From: Nocardia iowensis
GTDB taxonomy: Bacteria; Actinomycetota; Actinomycetes; Mycobacteriales; Mycobacteriaceae
Reading direction: 5' to 3'
NCBI RefSeq assembly: GCF_019222765.1
Contig: NZ_CP078145.1
Coordinates: 2,666,001 to 2,730,000 of the forward strand
DNA length: 64,000 bases
Position 1 is the first letter of the stretch. Each line of letters begins with the position of its first letter. Under the pieces are notes generated by a model. It did no database searches, had not been told where the DNA came from, and was given only the letters and a program-made list of their open reading frames with translations. Shown here in pieces: positions 49,203 through 59,514 of the stretch. The translations under genes and the position numbers were made by a program.

Positions 49203-49284
49203 CGATATCTGACAGTCACTATCAGGTTCTGTCGGCAAGCATACGAATACCGATGGAAAGTTTGCAAGGGACTGTCAGATATCG
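49203..49284. promoter_or_regulatory. Operator region of the MMPL transporter: large inverted repeat plus palindrome
   Basis: CGATATCTGACAGTC at 49203-49217 is repeated as its exact complement at 49270-49284, 52 bases apart. Overlapping the left arm is TGACAGTCACTATCA (49210-49224), a palindrome with three mismatched positions, in the style of a TetR operator. The sites surround the transporter promoter, so TetR binding to both arms, with DNA looping, is a possibility. Confidence 0.6.
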
Positions 49285-52808: not shown

Positions 52809-52826
52809 TAATGAAAATCATTATCG
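52809..52826. promoter_or_regulatory. Zur/Fur-type operator before the metallophore operon
   Basis: The sequence TGAAAATCATTATCG (52812-52826), preceded by TAA, matches the 7-1-7 palindrome TGAnAATCATTnTCA bound by actinobacterial Zur, at 13 or more of 15 positions. It occupies the -35 zone of the promoter whose -10 is TACGAT at 52833-52838. An IdeR-type iron box (TTAGGTTAGGCTAACCTAA) is not seen. Confidence 0.7.
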
Positions 52827-52832
52827 ATAGTC

Positions 52833-52838
52833 TACGAT
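52833..52838 (+). promoter_or_regulatory. Candidate -10 element (TACGAT) of the metallophore operon
   Basis: TACGAT stands seven bases after the Zur-like box and six bases before an ATG at 52845, so the mRNA would begin with or near that leader ORF. Confidence 0.5.
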
Positions 52839-52844
52839 GCTCTT

Positions 52845-52925
52845 ATGGCTTTGCCTCGGATCGGGATATGTGCTGCCGCAATGGCATTCGTAATCCGCAC
52901 CACGACATCGGAGTTCTATGAGTAA
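52845..52925 (+). CDS. Leader ORF overlapping the first metallophore gene
   Basis: A 26-codon ORF begins MALPRIGICAAAMAFVIRT and ends with TAA at 52923-52925, after the ATG of the next gene at 52918, so the two overlap by eight bases. With the -10 six bases upstream it would be read from a leaderless mRNA and could couple translation to the first enzyme. Whether the peptide is conserved is not known, and it may simply be chance. Confidence 0.35.
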   Translation: MALPRIGICAAAMAFVIRTTTSEFYE

Positions 52926-53895
52926 CGCACTACACATTCTCACTCGCACCGATCTGGCCGACATCGACATTCCGCCCGCCGAGGTCATCGATCTGGTCGA
53001 GGACGGCTACCTGGCCTTCGCGCGCGGCGACTCCCGCTGTCCGGTGAAACTGATGATGCCGATCCCGAAGCCGGAACGCGACGCGGTGTCGTATTCGATG
53101 CTGGGTTACGACAGTTCGCTCGAGCACCTGGGATTCAAGACGTCCTACCGGCAGGGCAGCGAGAGTGCGGACAAGTACTACACGACGATCAGCCTGTACG
53201 ACGACACCACCGGTCTGCCGTTCGCGTTCATGGACTGCCAGCGCGTCGGCGCCGCCCGTACCCCGGCCACCACCGCCATCATCGCGAAACACAGTGCCCG
53301 CGCGGGCGCGACGAGCGCACTCATGATCGGCACGGGCATTCAGGGGCGAAACACGTTGCCGTACTTGCTGACCGCGCTACCGGAGTTGCGGCAACTGCGG
53401 TTGTTCGGAACCCACCCCGACGGCATCGCGGAAAGTATTGGGGCGCTGCACCGCTGGTTCCCGGACCGGCAGCTCGAGCTCGTCGACGATGTGCCATCGG
53501 CGGTCGCCGAGTCCGACATCGTGGTGGTGGCGTCCGGCCGGGCCGCGCATCCCAAGGTACGAACCGAATGGCTGCCGCGGGGTGGGTTGCTGATCTCGGT
53601 GGCCAGCAAGGGCGTCGAGAGTGGCGCCCTGCGCGCCGCCGACTACGCGATCGCCACCAGCGCAGGACAACTCGGCGTCACCGGCAGCCGGCTGGCGGGG
53701 CCGGACGGTCAGCCGGTCATCGACGCCGAACTGCCGGACATCGTGGCGGGGCGGGCGTTGGGACGGTCCACCGAGGACGATCGGGTATTCGCCTTCGCCA
53801 GCGGCATGATCATCACCGATATCCCGGTCGCCCACGCACTGGCGACCCGCGCGGTGGCGGCGGGACGCGGACAGCGGGTGCAACTGTGGTCCTGA
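52918..53895 (+). CDS. Ornithine-cyclodeaminase/SbnB-family NAD-dependent dehydrogenase of a metallophore pathway
   Basis: The 325-residue protein has the OCD/mu-crystallin fold: LGFKTSYRQG near residue 71 in the substrate site, GAARTPATTAIIAKHSAR, and the NAD loop ALMIGTGIQGRN (138-143). In staphyloferrin B synthesis SbnB oxidatively splits N-(2-amino-2-carboxyethyl)-glutamate to give 2,3-diaminopropionate. Clustered with an SbnA-like enzyme, a decarboxylase and a MATE exporter behind a Zur-like box, it fits the aes genes for [S,S]-EDDS of Amycolatopsis japonicum (recalled, not searched). GGAG precedes the ATG. Confidence 0.82.
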   Translation: MSNALHILTRTDLADIDIPPAEVIDLVEDGYLAFARGDSRCPVKLMMPIPKPERDAVSYSMLGYDSSLEHLGFKTSYRQGSESADKYYTTISLYDDTTGLPFAFMDCQRVGAARTPATTAIIAKHSARAGATSALMIGTGIQGRNTLPYLLTALPELRQLRLFGTHPDGIAESIGALHRWFPDRQLELVDDVPSAVAESDIVVVASGRAAHPKVRTEWLPRGGLLISVASKGVESGALRAADYAIATSAGQLGVTGSRLAGPDGQPVIDAELPDIVAGRALGRSTEDDRVFAFASGMIITDIPVAHALATRAVAAGRGQRVQLWS

Positions 53896-55235
53896 ACGCC
53901 GCACTCGTCGATATCCCCGCGCTGCCCGCGGTGGAACAGGAATGGCAGCGGCGGGTTCGGACGGATCAACATCTGCTCTTCGACATCCACCACGCGGTGG
54001 GCGGCCCGTTCCACGTGGTCTATCCCGCGCAGTTCGCCGAGAACCTCCGCTCTTTCCAGAAAACGCTGGCCGGGCACGGGGTGCGCGGCCAGGTCTACTA
54101 CGGCAAGAAGGCCAATAAGGCGGGCTGCTGGCTGCCCGCGATCGCCGACCTCGACGGCGCGGTGGATGTCGCCAGCGAGCCCGAACTGGTGCACGCGCTG
54201 GCGCACGGCGTCCGCGGTCGCGACATCGGGGTGACCGGCGCGGCCAAAACCGATGCGCTACTGCGGCTTGCCGCCCGGCACGACTGCGTGGTCGCCATCG
54301 ACGCGCTCGACGAACTGGAGCGGATCGCCGAGATCGCGCGCAGCGCGGGGCGGGTGCGAATCCTGTTGCGGCGGTTGCCGCCGAACGCGCCGGACAGCCG
54401 ATTCGGCTTGTCGGCAGCGGATCTCGACACCGCGATCGCCCGATGTGTGCGGCTACGACCGTGGGTCGAACTGATCGGGTTCTCTTTCCACCTGGACGGT
54501 TACGCGGTCGCACCGCGAGCCGAACTCGCCTTCGACCTGATCCGGTTGTGCGCCTCGACGAAAGCACAGGGCCTGCCGGTCGACACGCTGTCGATCGGCG
54601 GCGGCTTCGCCTGCCGCTACCTGCGTGAGGACGACTGGAACGGCTTCCTCGCCCACCGGCGCGACGACTGGTTCCACGCCGGAAAACAGTTCGGCAAGTT
54701 CTATCCGTACGCACAGGACCCGACGGGTGCCGACATGCTGGACGCCATCCTCGCGACCACGTTCGAGGGCGGCACGTTGGCGAAGCACCTGCGCGATAAC
54801 GATATCCAGCTCTTCATCGAACCCGGCCGCGCACTGCTCATCGATGCGGGCTTTACGGTGTTCCCGGTTCTCGGCTACAAGCACAATGCCGACTACGGCA
54901 TCACGACTGTGCACGGCCTGAGCATGAGCGTGTCCGAACAGTGGAAAGGGAGCGAATTTCTGCCGGACCCGATCCTGGTGCCCCGCAAGCACGATCCGGC
55001 GGCCGGGCCGATCGCCAGCTGTGTCGGCGGCGCGAGCTGCATGGAATACGACGTGCTCACCTGGCGCAAGGTGCCGCTGCCGCAGCGTCCCGAATACGGC
55101 GACCTACTGCTGTATCCGAACACGGCGGGCTACCAGATGGACAAGAACGAGAGCGAATTCCACCAGCTGCCACTGCCCCCGAAGGTAGTTATCACGGATG
55201 CGGAGGGCCGGTTTCGGTGGCGCTTGGACAAGTGA
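53886..55235 (+). CDS. PLP-dependent group IV decarboxylase (SbnH/LysA-like) of a metallophore pathway
   Basis: The 449-residue alanine-racemase-fold enzyme has the PLP Lys75 in VYYGKKANKAG, the glycine-rich SIGGGFACRYL, FIEPGRALLIDAG, and the C-terminal CVGGASCMEYDVLTWRK with the Cys that crosses the dimer interface. Such enzymes decarboxylate diamino acids or amino-acid conjugates; SbnH decarboxylates a citryl-Dap conjugate. In an EDDS-type route it could remove the carboxyl of the Dap unit to give the ethylenediamine bridge. The GTG start overlaps the previous gene by ten bases, and the TGA overlaps the next start. Confidence 0.82.
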   Translation: MVLNAALVDIPALPAVEQEWQRRVRTDQHLLFDIHHAVGGPFHVVYPAQFAENLRSFQKTLAGHGVRGQVYYGKKANKAGCWLPAIADLDGAVDVASEPELVHALAHGVRGRDIGVTGAAKTDALLRLAARHDCVVAIDALDELERIAEIARSAGRVRILLRRLPPNAPDSRFGLSAADLDTAIARCVRLRPWVELIGFSFHLDGYAVAPRAELAFDLIRLCASTKAQGLPVDTLSIGGGFACRYLREDDWNGFLAHRRDDWFHAGKQFGKFYPYAQDPTGADMLDAILATTFEGGTLAKHLRDNDIQLFIEPGRALLIDAGFTVFPVLGYKHNADYGITTVHGLSMSVSEQWKGSEFLPDPILVPRKHDPAAGPIASCVGGASCMEYDVLTWRKVPLPQRPEYGDLLLYPNTAGYQMDKNESEFHQLPLPPKVVITDAEGRFRWRLDK

Positions 55236-56350
55236 GCACGCATGGACAGGTGAAAACGCACACCGTGCAGCCGCGACCGCTGTCCGCCCAATTGCCGCGC
55301 CGCCGAGAGAACGTCGTCCGCGCCGCCTCCGAACTGATCGGCGCCACCCCGCTGCTCGAACTCGTGCGCACCGGCGCGGGCACCCGTTTGCTGCTCAAGC
55401 TGGAGCAGTTCAACCCGACCGGCTCCGCGAAGGTGCGGATGGCGCGGGAGATGGTGCTACAGGCCGAACGCAGCGGCGAATTGCGTCCCGGCGGGCACAT
55501 CGTCGAACCGACCTCCGGCAATACCGGTACCGGTCTCGCGCTGATGGCCATCGAACGCGGTTACACGTTCACCGCGGTGGTGGACGACCACGCCGCCAAG
55601 GACAAGTTGCGCGCCATGAAAGCGATGGGCGCACAGCTGGTTTCGGTCGACAGCGGCACCGGCGGCGGTCCGAGCACGGTGGAGCGCAGGCGAGTCGCCG
55701 ATGAGATCGCGGCCCGCACCGGCGCGTACCGACCGGACCAGCACAACAATCCGCACAACAACGCGGGCTATCGCGACCTCGCGGGCGAACTGCTCGCCGA
55801 TCTCAACACCGATATCGACTACCTGGTGGGCGCTGTAGGGACCGGCGGATCACTCTGCGGGACAGTCGAGGAACTACGCAGGCTCGGCTCGCGAGTGCGC
55901 GCGCTGGGTGTCGAGCCCGTGGGCTCCATCATCTTCGGTGGCGCGGGTGGCAGCTACTGGCAGTCCGGTGCGGGTAGCCCGGCCGGGTTCTCGGTGGGCG
56001 GCAACGTGAAATACGACGCGATCGATGAGGGCTGCCGAGTGGGCGACATCGACGCGTTCGCCACCGCGCGAGTGGTCGCGCGTCGCACCGGCATCCTGGT
56101 CGGCGGAACGGGCGGTGCGGCAATCCATGTCGCGGTGCGCCGACTGGTGCATCTGCCCGCGGGGAGCACCGTGGTCGTGCTGATCTGCGATGCGGGGGAG
56201 AAGTACCTCGACACCGTGTACGACGACGACTGGTTACACGAGCGCGGGTTGTACGACCGGGCGGCACAGCAGCGGACCGTCCGGCTGCTGCGGGCGTACG
56301 ACGAATCCGTGCGGCTGGCGGCATATGGCGTCGAGCGGACGGGAGCCTAG
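55232..56350 (+). CDS. Cysteine-synthase-like (SbnA family) PLP enzyme of a metallophore pathway
   Basis: The 372-residue protein has PLP Lys67 in KLEQFNPTGSAKVRMAREM, the substrate loop EPTSGNTGTGLALMA, AVGTGGSLCGTVEEL, and GILVGGTGGAAIHVA. SbnA joins O-phospho-L-serine and L-glutamate in diaminopropionate synthesis; here aspartate could be the partner if the product is EDDS, which has aspartate-derived halves. GTG 55232 overlaps the decarboxylase stop. The last 30 residues extend past the normal cysteine synthase end. Confidence 0.85.
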   Translation: MSTHGQVKTHTVQPRPLSAQLPRRRENVVRAASELIGATPLLELVRTGAGTRLLLKLEQFNPTGSAKVRMAREMVLQAERSGELRPGGHIVEPTSGNTGTGLALMAIERGYTFTAVVDDHAAKDKLRAMKAMGAQLVSVDSGTGGGPSTVERRRVADEIAARTGAYRPDQHNNPHNNAGYRDLAGELLADLNTDIDYLVGAVGTGGSLCGTVEELRRLGSRVRALGVEPVGSIIFGGAGGSYWQSGAGSPAGFSVGGNVKYDAIDEGCRVGDIDAFATARVVARRTGILVGGTGGAAIHVAVRRLVHLPAGSTVVVLICDAGEKYLDTVYDDDWLHERGLYDRAAQQRTVRLLRAYDESVRLAAYGVERTGA

Positions 56351-56353
56351 CCC

Positions 56354-57757
56354 ATGGCCTTTCGAGAGTATCGGGCCATCGTCGCGCTGGCCGCCCCGAT
56401 CGCCGGTATCCAGCTCGCCCAGGTGGCGCTGACCACGGTGGATCTGGCGATGATGGGACTGCTCGGTGTCACCTCCGTCGCGGCAGGCGGACTGGCGTTG
56501 CTGCTGTACAACCAACTGCGCACCATGTGTGTCGGCATGATCACCGGTGTCGGGAACATGATCGCCCAGGCGGTCGGGAGTAGTGAAAAACGCAGCGGCA
56601 GTGCCGATATCGATGAGCAAGCGTGCATCGAGATCCAAGGATATGTCCGTGCCGCGGCACTTGTGGCCACGGTGACATCGGCAGCGGGCGCGCTGATCCT
56701 GATCACGCTCGGCTATGCGCTGCGCTGGCTCGGTCAGGATCCCGACGTGCTGGCGCTGGCCCGCCCGATCATGTGGACACTGGCCCCCGGGCTCATCCCC
56801 ATGCTGTGGCTGAACGTGTTGCGCCAGTTCGCCGTCGGCCTGCGGCGCGCGGGCTCGCTGTTGCGCGTGACGCTGCTGTCGATCGGTGTCAACGCGCTGC
56901 TGAACGCGCTGTTCATCTTCGGCTGGTTCGGCATGCCGAAACTGGGCCTTGCCGGAATCGGCCTGTCCACCACGCTGGTTCAGGTCTGGACGTGCTGCCT
57001 GTACCTGCGCACCGTCCGGCGTGACCCACTGCTCGGTGACCTGCTGTCCCTGCGCTTTTGGCAGGCCGATCGCGCGACGGTCACACGAATTGTCCGGATG
57101 GGCACCCCGATATCGCTGACTTACGGTGCGGAAGCGGCGATCACATCCATTGCCGCGGTGCTGATGGGCAGCTTCGGGCCGGTGGCACTGGCCGCGAGCA
57201 ATATCGTCAACCAGCTGGCCTATATCGTGTATCAGGTCAATATCGGCCTCTCCCAAGGCTCCTCGATTCTGGTCAGTAGAACCGTCGGGCAAGGGGACGG
57301 GCCCGCGGTGGCGGGCATCGCCCGGCGGACCTTCGCGCTCGGCTTCGCGTTCATGACCGTGGTCGGCCTCGGCTACGTGCTGTTTCCCGGCGCGGTACTC
57401 GCCCCGTTCCTGAGTTCGCACCACGACGACACCGCCGTCATCGCCGCGGCGTCGACGCTGCTGTGGTTCGCGATCGTCCAGCAGTACTGCAAGGGTTCGC
57501 AAAACCTGTCCATCGGGTTGCTGCGCGGCATCGGAAACACCAAGGCGGGGATGCAGAGCACGCTGATCGGCTACTTCGCCATCGGCGTGCCCGCCATGGC
57601 CGTGTTCGGGTTCGGCCTCGGCTGGCGCGGCCCCGGCATCTGGCTCGGCCTGTGTTTCGGCTTCGGCGCCACGGCATTGTTGGTGTGGCGCAGGTTTCTG
57701 CGCGGTGCCGCCGACTTGGCCACGCCCACGCGGGAATCCGTGACCGCGACGGGATGA
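56354..57757 (+). CDS. MATE-family exporter of the metallophore operon
   Basis: The 467-residue protein has about twelve helices in two MatE halves (IAGIQLAQVALTTVDLAMMGLLG at the start; MGTPISLTYGAEAAITSIAAVLMGSFG in the second half). It follows three bases after the SbnA-like gene and ends the operon, so it is probably the exporter of the product. A MATE gene likewise ends the aes group as I remember it. No receptor or metal importer is in the window. Confidence 0.88.
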   Translation: MAFREYRAIVALAAPIAGIQLAQVALTTVDLAMMGLLGVTSVAAGGLALLLYNQLRTMCVGMITGVGNMIAQAVGSSEKRSGSADIDEQACIEIQGYVRAAALVATVTSAAGALILITLGYALRWLGQDPDVLALARPIMWTLAPGLIPMLWLNVLRQFAVGLRRAGSLLRVTLLSIGVNALLNALFIFGWFGMPKLGLAGIGLSTTLVQVWTCCLYLRTVRRDPLLGDLLSLRFWQADRATVTRIVRMGTPISLTYGAEAAITSIAAVLMGSFGPVALAASNIVNQLAYIVYQVNIGLSQGSSILVSRTVGQGDGPAVAGIARRTFALGFAFMTVVGLGYVLFPGAVLAPFLSSHHDDTAVIAAASTLLWFAIVQQYCKGSQNLSIGLLRGIGNTKAGMQSTLIGYFAIGVPAMAVFGFGLGWRGPGIWLGLCFGFGATALLVWRRFLRGAADLATPTRESVTATG

Positions 57758-57969: not shown

Positions 57970-59514
57970 ATGTGCGCAGCAGGGCCGTTCAGCGGGCTCA
58001 ATCGCAGACAATTCCTAGCGAAGGCGGCGGCGGCCGGTGCGGTGGGCGCGTTGGCATCCTGGGCCGACCCGATCATCGAACGGGCCTACGCCGCCGACCC
58101 CGCCGGGATGGGTGGCCTGGGCGACATCGAGCACTTCGTGTTGCTGATGCAGGAAAACCGCTCCTTCGACCACTATTTCGGCACCCTGTCCGGCGTGCGC
58201 GGGTTCGACGAGGCGGCGACAGCCTGGCGGCAGTACGGCTGGACGCCGGGCGCGGGCCCGACACCCGACGGCTATGTGAATCCGTTCCGGCTCGACACCA
58301 CCCGCGGCGCAACGCTCGACGGCGAATGCATCAATGATCCGGACCACAGCTGGGGCGGCATGCACCGGGCCTGGAACGGTGGACGCAACGATCAGTGGAT
58401 GCCGATGTCGATCGCCAGCGTCGGCGCGGCCAACGCGCCCGCGGCGATGGGTTACTACCTGCCGCAAGACATTCCGGTCCACACCGCGCTCGCGGACGCC
58501 TTCACCCTGTGCGACAACTATCACTGCTCGGTACTGGGCCCCACCGACCCGAACCGGCTGTACTGGATCAGCGGCACCATCGACCCGGACGGCAACGCGG
58601 GCGGCCCGCTGGTGGAAACCCCCAGGCTGATCCCGCAGCACGTCTACAGCTGGCGCACCTATCCGGAGAACCTATCCGAGGCCGGCGTCAGCTGGAAGGT
58701 CTACAACAACCGCGACGTCGGCCCGCTGTCCTCGGTGATCCTCGACGGCATGCTCGGCTGCTTCACCCAATCCGCTGACCCGAACTCTGAATTGGCGCGT
58801 CGCGGCAGGGTGCCGGTGTACCCCAACGATTTTCAGGCCGACGTCGCCAACGACACGCTGCCCGCCGTGTCCTGGGTGATTCCGTCGCTGCTCAATTGCG
58901 AACATCCCGCGCTGCCCGCGGCATTCGGTGCGTTCGGCATCATCGGGCTGCTCGACATCCTCACCTCGAATCCGAAGGTGTGGGAGAAGACCGCGCTGAT
59001 CGTCAGTTATGACGAGAACGGCGGCTTCTTCGACCACGTCACCCCGCCCACGCCACCGCCGGGCACCCCAGGCGAGTTCCTCACCGTGCCGCTCGACCGC
59101 GTGTCGGCGGCCGAGGGCATCGCCGGTCCGATAGGTTTGGGGTATCGCGTTCCCGCGCTGGTGATTTCGCCGTATGCCCGGGGCGGGCTCGTCGCCTCGG
59201 AAACGTTCGACCACACCTCACAGCTGCGACTGCTGGAAACCAGATTCGGTGTGGAGGTGCCGAATGTGACCGCGTGGCGCCGCGGCGTCACCGGCGATAT
59301 GACCTCCACCTTCGATTTCGGCTCGGCACCGGATACCGCGAAACCGGTGCTGCCCGACCCGAAACCGAAAATGGATGCCGCGGTCGCCCAATGCGGCCCG
59401 AATATCGCATTGGGTTCGGTGACCACCGGGATTCCCTATCCGGTGCCGCCGAACGCGATGCCGACACAGCAACCCGGTACCCGGCGCAGGCCGAGTGGGT
59501 TGATTCGGGCATGA
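57970..59514 (+). CDS. Tat-exported phospholipase C (mycobacterial PlcA-D family)
   Basis: The 514-residue protein starts [36 protein letters not shown], with a twin-Arg motif at residues 13-14 and a hydrophobic signal region. The phosphoesterase domain has [28 protein letters not shown] (metal Glu, Asn, His), [12 protein letters not shown] and [14 protein letters not shown], with VISPYARGG late. These match PlcA-D of M. tuberculosis and the AcpA family. It probably cleaves phosphatidylcholine or sphingomyelin outside the cell. It lies 212 bases after the exporter and has its own promoter by inference. Confidence 0.9.

Follow-up and report, generated by a model that had tools for sequence, protein, structure and literature searches.

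Gene content of the operon

The window, the whole 64,000-nucleotide stretch of Nocardia iowensis DNA that was analysed, contains four complete genes in a row, designated A to D (Table 1). A and B overlap by 10 nt and B and C by 4 nt, and 3 nt separate C from D, which confirms the tight linkage, with overlaps or a 3-base gap, claimed in an earlier reading made from the letters alone (the sequence-only reading). The Pfam and NCBIfam profiles matched were OCD_Mu_crystall and TIGR03944 SbnB for A, Orn_Arg_deC_N for B, PALP and TIGR03945 SbnA for C, and MatE for D. The family calls of that reading (SbnB-like A, PLP decarboxylase B, SbnA-like C and MATE exporter D) were borne out by these matches. 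C reached 226.7 bits with the SbnA equivalog TIGR03945 (curated cut-off 349.95) and A reached 95.6 bits with the SbnB equivalog TIGR03944 (curated cut-off 326.9); since both scores are far under the cut-offs, "like" is the fitting word for C and A. D passed the cut-off of the MATE exporter model TIGR00797 (176.3 against 147.4 bits). The best solved relatives of B were D-ornithine/D-lysine and diaminopimelate decarboxylases, the match being limited to the N-terminal part, and B is presumably comparable to SbnH.

Table 1. Positions of the operon, its predicted box, the importer remnants and the paralogous block (window positions unless stated otherwise)
Feature	Position	Strand	Remarks
Predicted Zur-type box TGAAAATCATTATCG	52812..52826	.	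1 mismatch to TGAWAATSATTWTCA; motif search and regulon sites
Remnant of binding-protein gene start of a deleted Nik/Opp-type importer	52845..52895	+	about 17 codons; blastn
Remnant of second importer ATPase gene end, fused to binding-protein start	52893..52917	+	about 8 codons
Remnant frame, 27 codons, stop included	52845..52925	+	overlaps A start by 8 nt
Gene A, AesA/SbnB-like, OCD/mu-crystallin family	52918..53895	+	ATG start, 325 aa
Gene B, PLP-dependent decarboxylase (Orn/DAP/Arg type)	53886..55235	+	GTG start, 449 aa
Gene C, SbnA-like PLP beta-substitution enzyme	55232..56350	+	GTG start, 372 aa
Gene D, MATE exporter	56354..57757	+	ATG start, 467 aa
Second, paralogous A-D-type block (L125)	genome contig, about 7,826,000-7,831,900		B at 51% identity

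The operon is flanked by a divergent gene for a 377-aa protein with no family match and by a gene for a phospholipase-C-like phosphoesterase. In the Pfam/NCBIfam scan, an arginine-type hydroxylase gene was absent among A-D and these two neighbours, and the profile search found no NIS synthetase in the two neighbours. The composition and order A-B-C-D are those of an EDDS-type (aes) operon. The likeness to the aesA-D zincophore genes proposed earlier is supported by the four-gene order, which is common to many bacteria, including Amycolatopsis. By its gene content the operon is assigned to the EDDS/EDHA aminopolycarboxylate type, which is already known, and the sequence-only reading appears to have been largely right.

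The phosphoesterase gene lies directly downstream of D, at 57970-59514. EDDS was originally described as a phospholipase C inhibitor. The vicinity is curious and perhaps due to chance.

Zur-type box and predicted zinc regulon

TGAWAATSATTWTCA is the Zur palindrome pattern. The box in front of the operon, present as a motif, starts 106 nt upstream of the start of A. TGAAAATCATTATC was found exactly at 52812-52825, and six matches with at most 3 mismatches occurred in the window, compared with a mean of 0.56 in shuffled sequences. The box also matches a Fur-type 19-mer with 2 mismatches.

The genome (8.95 Mb, one contig, rated 100% complete) was scanned with TGAWAATSATTWTCA. Three sites were found at no more than 1 mismatch and ten at no more than 2, and the reversed pattern gave none. 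The second site at no more than 1 mismatch lies between znu-type ABC ATPase and ABC-3 permease genes (L005), and the third lies just before a CobW/COG0523-type gene (L007). Two 2-mismatch sites separate a further CobW-family gene from the genes of ribosomal proteins L28, L33 and S18 (L012/L013); the other five 2-mismatch sites (L008, L009, L010, L011 and L014) showed no recognisable zinc gene. COG0523, znu and alternative ribosomal protein genes are listed as Zur targets in actinobacteria in excerpts of PMC6103462. The genome holds four Fur-family genes, one of which (L001), a candidate for Zur, adjoins an ArsR-family gene; the assignment of the box to one of the four proteins would follow from the predicted regulon. 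Zur control of A-D, for which the sequence-only reading had named a box over the promoter, is well supported in silico by the genome-wide site count and the regulon neighbours.

A different palindrome, TGACAGTCACTATCA, lies at 49210-49224 near the start of an mmpL-like gene, and similar ones occur in L015, L017, L018 and L127. It is possibly the operator of another regulator.

Importer in relatives of the operon

One scan of named genomes yielded 74 loci encoding a relative of B, in Nocardia, Amycolatopsis, Kribbella, Tsukamurella, Gordonia, Mycobacterium, Corynebacterium, Rhizobium, Methylobacterium and other genera. By a script rule, A, C and D stood in line with B in 62 of them. The sole C match in six of eight mycobacterial-type loci was 35-37% identical and lay upstream of A. 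The nearest relatives were all from Nocardia. Relatives of B were also found in 116 plasmid records, including Agrobacterium and Rhizobium rhizogenes. An Agrobacterium vitis record titled pTi (L036) carries relatives of A, B and C, with no MATE match in the fetched stretch.

A five-gene Nik/Opp-type ABC importer is encoded directly before A in 16 of the 74 fetched relatives. The reference copy (L020) consists of an SBP_bac_5 binding protein, two BPD_transp_1 permeases and two ATPases by Pfam. Its best NCBIfam matches were to nickel/oligopeptide (Nik/Opp) models and weaker ones to staphylopine Cnt, all below cut-off. Upstream DNA of 69 to 327 nt was examined before the binding-protein gene in 13 of the 16 importer-bearing loci, and a Zur-like site with at most 3 mismatches was present in all 13 (at most 2 in ten). 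L026, L054 and L057 have Zur-like sites only at 3 mismatches and are weakly labelled.

The genus was sampled with 148 genomes, that of N. iowensis included. A B relative of at least 70% identity was present in 24, and in ten of these the binding protein (at least 74% identity) was encoded within about 6 kb of B; the other 14 had no binding-protein match at E<=1e-40. Binding-protein relatives at 43-47% identity occurred in 22 of the 148 genomes. Three of these importers were examined (L126, L143 and L144); they are five-gene systems without A-D beside them and were set aside as probable nickel importers. L144 adjoins a HypD gene, and L143 and L144 adjoin an ArsR-like gene (the latter by eye).

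Importer scar in N. iowensis and other relatives

The excised importer is the most notable feature of the N. iowensis operon. The leader has been retained in the window, and the binding-protein remnant between the box and A is identical to L020 in 45 of 51 nt, to L016 in 44 and to L019 in 43, with a breakpoint ambiguous by a few nt. The second-ATPase remnant, which touches the start of A, is identical in 24 of 25 nt to L016, 23 to L019 and 21 to L020. The overlap of the fused remnant frame with A may have kept translational coupling after the deletion. The span from the binding-protein start to A is 4904 nt in L016, so about 4.8 kb would be missing in the window if the ancestor was alike.

A relocated importer was sought in the one-contig genome with two proteins, the binding protein and the first permease, and this explanation was rejected. 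The binding protein had no close copy elsewhere (best 29% identity, none at E<=1e-40), nor had the first permease, for which 31% was the highest identity reached over most of the protein; a short 38% piece matching the first permease sits in the permease of the second operon described below. Of a complete zincophore system (synthesis, export and import), the cognate importer is the missing part, deleted in place. An unrelated substitute importer may be encoded in the genome.

Scars were also found in other relatives. A related but longer scar is present in L015, L017 and L018. About 150 nt of the binding-protein gene is left at 72% in L028 (and L136, with identical B), and about 50 nt in L135. 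In Amycolatopsis L062, L063, L067, L070 and L074 the leader and the ATPase end are present and the intervening part is gone, and binding-protein fragments remain in L061 (A. coloradensis). Only the last 16-24 nt before A are left in L022-L024, L127-L131, L133 and L134, some with the leader, and next to nothing of the importer is left in L132 and L056. Several importer-less loci, judged by the retained pieces and their differing breakpoints, can be taken to prove deletion; not every such locus does.

Zinc-type and iron-type operons

Loci were labelled by script as Zur (at most 3 mismatches) or IdeR (at most 4 mismatches) within 400 nt upstream of A or of a Nik/Opp importer. Among 92 loci, which include six pairs with identical B, 36 were labelled Zur, 12 IdeR and 38 neither, and six were not assessable. 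In a shuffle control (mononucleotide, 310-nt upstream regions), Zur sites appeared in 2 of 365 and IdeR sites in 0 of 365 at the same thresholds. The label of L127 is weak; its best "Zur" site resembles the palindrome of the mmpL-like gene at window position 49210, and its other site has 3 mismatches.

The Nik/Opp importer was absent from all 12 IdeR-labelled loci. The neighbours of seven of the 12 were inspected. Peripla_BP_2 and FecCD genes adjoin L041, L044 and L059 (tested with Pfam), and an ABC ATPase was confirmed for the first two. L045 and L048 have the same appearance by eye, L034 has an incomplete binding protein of similar appearance, and L086 has a Dpp-like set by neighbour inspection. 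In two Pseudomonadota loci, L032 and L040, the neighbouring genes are FecCD-like by eye, and L032 additionally adjoins a TonB-dependent receptor. Both sorts of operon occur in N. transvalensis (L028 Zur, L041 IdeR).

A and C of N. iowensis are 71-76% and 70-76% identical, respectively, to those of IdeR-boxed Nocardia and 69-71% and 64-66% identical to those of Zur-boxed Amycolatopsis. They are at least as close to the former as to the latter, and therefore the enzymes themselves do not point to zinc.

The same genome contains a second operon (L125 in Table 1). Ahead of the paralogous block stands a gene of the TauD family, with best NCBIfam matches to the GntD and VioC hydroxylases, below cut-off. 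A divergent importer extends to about 7,820,400, with an SBP_bac_5 binding protein and a BPD_transp_1 first permease. The binding protein has nickel-type NCBIfam matches and belongs to the same broad family as that of the deleted importer, very distantly. Of the five strict IdeR-like sites in the genome (reversed control 0), two fall between the divergent units; the script left the operon unlabelled, these two sites being outside the region scanned. By these features the second operon fits the EDHA, iron-responsive siderophore type.

Phylogeny and selection

A quick tree of B was built with 88 proteins, four partial ones being excluded; only SH-aLRT was used as support, and 22 of 79 forks were open. 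Nocardia (with the window), Amycolatopsis/Kribbella/Tsukamurella/Gordonia and Pseudomonadota formed one 57-row set with SH-aLRT 98, Amycolatopsis being represented by species other than A. japonicum. One change between Zur and IdeR suffices for the rows that carry a label; with unlabelled rows scored as other, each label requires five. Within the Zur-labelled rows, eight changes are needed for the presence of the importer. The importer tree yielded two starred groups, one of Nocardia and one of Amycolatopsis/Kribbella/Gordonia/Tsukamurella; Nocardia L025/L027 joined the latter at 89/87, which is not starred.

Reading frames were checked over the best-matching span, which covered 90-100% of each gene. 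A-D were free of in-frame stops in 22 of 23 Zur-labelled importer-less loci, D of L056 being the exception; four of the 23 repeat another locus with identical B. Among importer-bearing loci the count was 15 of 16, with C of L029 as the exception. By a simple counting method, dN/dS of A-D was 0.108-0.164 in three window pairs, 0.072-0.204 in other importer-less pairs and 0.091-0.204 in importer-bearing pairs (Nocardia pairs 0.091-0.201; L064/L068 0.128-0.204). A-D look to be under purifying selection, with importer loss having occurred without visible relaxation.

Proposed function and alternatives

A-D are probably a Zur-repressed operon for synthesis and export of an EDDS-type zinc chelator, from which an ancestral importer was deleted in place. 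This reading builds on what the DNA itself displays: the gene order, the box, the scar, the lack of a closely similar binding protein or first permease elsewhere, and the low dN/dS. We infer the metal, the product, the order of reactions and the importer substrate as follows. When zinc is plentiful, Zn-Zur on 52812-52826 would block transcription, and zinc shortage would lead to expression of A-D. In the reaction of C, the amino group of aspartate would displace phosphate from O-phosphoserine, and B would decarboxylate the product to an aminoethyl-aspartate. A, a putative NAD(P)-dependent imine-type enzyme, would join aminoethyl-aspartate to a second C4 acid, giving an ethylenediamine core with two succinyl arms, which D would export. 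In the ancestral operon, the genes of the five-gene Nik/Opp-type importer would have separated the Zur box from A, and the metal-chelator complex is the presumed substrate of that importer. Its deletion in the lineage of the strain would have left synthesis and export behind the Zur box.

The product may differ from EDDS, by containing an amino acid other than aspartate or by being asymmetric, while still being zinc-controlled and exported. The identity of B to nearly all non-Nocardia relatives is 55-60% (40-43% to two Corynebacterium), and the EDHA-like paralogue with its GntD/VioC-like hydroxylase shows product variation in the family. However, the operon has no tailoring gene and has the composition of the Zur-boxed, importer-less Amycolatopsis operons, and a different product is considered rather unlikely. 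An iron-controlled operon making a siderophore, as predicted for the aminopolycarboxylate cluster of Nocardia mangyaensis NH1, is highly unlikely. IdeR-boxed relatives do exist, and according to excerpts of PMC10920908 the NH1 cluster includes a MATE gene and has a DmdR1 site for iron. In front of the window operon, however, no IdeR match came closer than 9 mismatches, which is chance level, and iron control was rejected for lack of an IdeR box there. The arginine-type hydroxylase gene and iron control of an EDHA siderophore are both missing from the window operon, and the NH1 cluster would more probably correspond to the separate paralogous operon, with two of the five IdeR-like sites.

It was also considered that the importer was never present in the window lineage and was inserted between box and A in others. 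Its presence is scattered over the B tree, with the eight changes given above, and many importer-less loci keep only the short stretch before A or, as in L132 and L056, almost nothing. The importer coding pieces retained in the window and several relatives with differing breakpoints, the fragments in L061 and the two starred groups of the importer tree argue against insertion, which is thus very improbable. Uptake of the complex by another importer, for example that of the EDHA-like operon, so that the deletion cost nothing, is a serious possibility that we nevertheless do not favour. The SBP_bac_5-type importer divergent to the second operon is a candidate, but it lies behind IdeR-like boxes, the fetched stretch has no Zur-like site, and nothing links this importer to the product.

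Within the preferred reading of a zinc-chelator operon with a deleted importer, a further step can be suggested only tentatively. The chelator may no longer be a recapture device here and in other lineages, probably including EDDS-making Amycolatopsis, the importer having been lost repeatedly and synthesis and export kept under selection. It might work extracellularly, for instance by depriving competitors of zinc or by bringing zinc into solution for later uptake as the free ion, and the Nik/Opp-type importer might be the missing EDDS importer where it is kept.

Comparison with known systems

The [S,S]-EDDS operon aesA-D of Amycolatopsis japonicum was reportedly described by Spohn in 2016, and the EDHA siderophore operon is said to have been described by Spohn in 2018. 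Other Amycolatopsis species, which we take to be close to A. japonicum, were used as stand-ins for it. The five Amycolatopsis loci L062, L063, L067, L070 and L074 resemble the window operon in gene order, Zur-like box and importer scar, and differ in breakpoints; they belong to another genus, with identities of 70-71% (A), 57-58% (B), 64-66% (C) and 60-63% (D). According to excerpts of PMC4993170, aesA-D is likewise a Zur-controlled pathway for a small aminopolycarboxylate without NRPS or NIS.

In the portion of PMC10702961 available, EDHA is described as a siderophore that responds to iron, with Nocardia brasiliensis among the organisms reported for it. Its operon has a homologous A-B-C-D block in common with the window operon, whereas the EDHA-type features (GntD/VioC-like hydroxylase, SBP_bac_5-type importer and IdeR-like boxes) are found in the second operon and are absent from the window operon. 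SbnA and SbnB of staphyloferrin B are of the same enzyme superfamilies as C and A, with scores far below the cut-offs. Zinc-regulated NikA/OppA-like importers occur in Corynebacterium diphtheriae (PMC6711530, in part). The importer-bearing relatives resemble that system and staphylopine cnt in that a zinc-type box precedes a Nik/Opp importer next to small-molecule genes, but the biosynthesis is different, the window importer is deleted, and the NikA and CntA matches of the relatives are below cut-off. A rule for aminopolycarboxylic acid metallophores is included in antiSMASH 7 (excerpts of PMC10320115), and such clusters are noted in N. mangyaensis (PMC10920908) and C. striatum (PMC10486106) in the portions of those articles available.

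Neither the importer loss nor the pairing of regulator and importer was found described in the available portions of the literature searched, a set to which Spohn 2016 and 2018 did not belong, and those portions gave no account of how metal-loaded EDDS returns into actinomycetes. The importer-bearing relatives offer a specific candidate in their nickel/oligopeptide-type ABC importer, which follows a Zur-type box; judging by the scars, several lineages live without it. The division into Zur-boxed and IdeR-boxed operons, whose importers differ and which can coexist in a genome as in N. transvalensis and in N. iowensis with its EDHA-like paralogue, provides a clean system for studying chelator reassignment between zinc and iron. 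Compared with these known systems, the N. iowensis operon can be placed in the EDDS-type family as a new member that probably makes and exports a zinc chelator under Zur repression.
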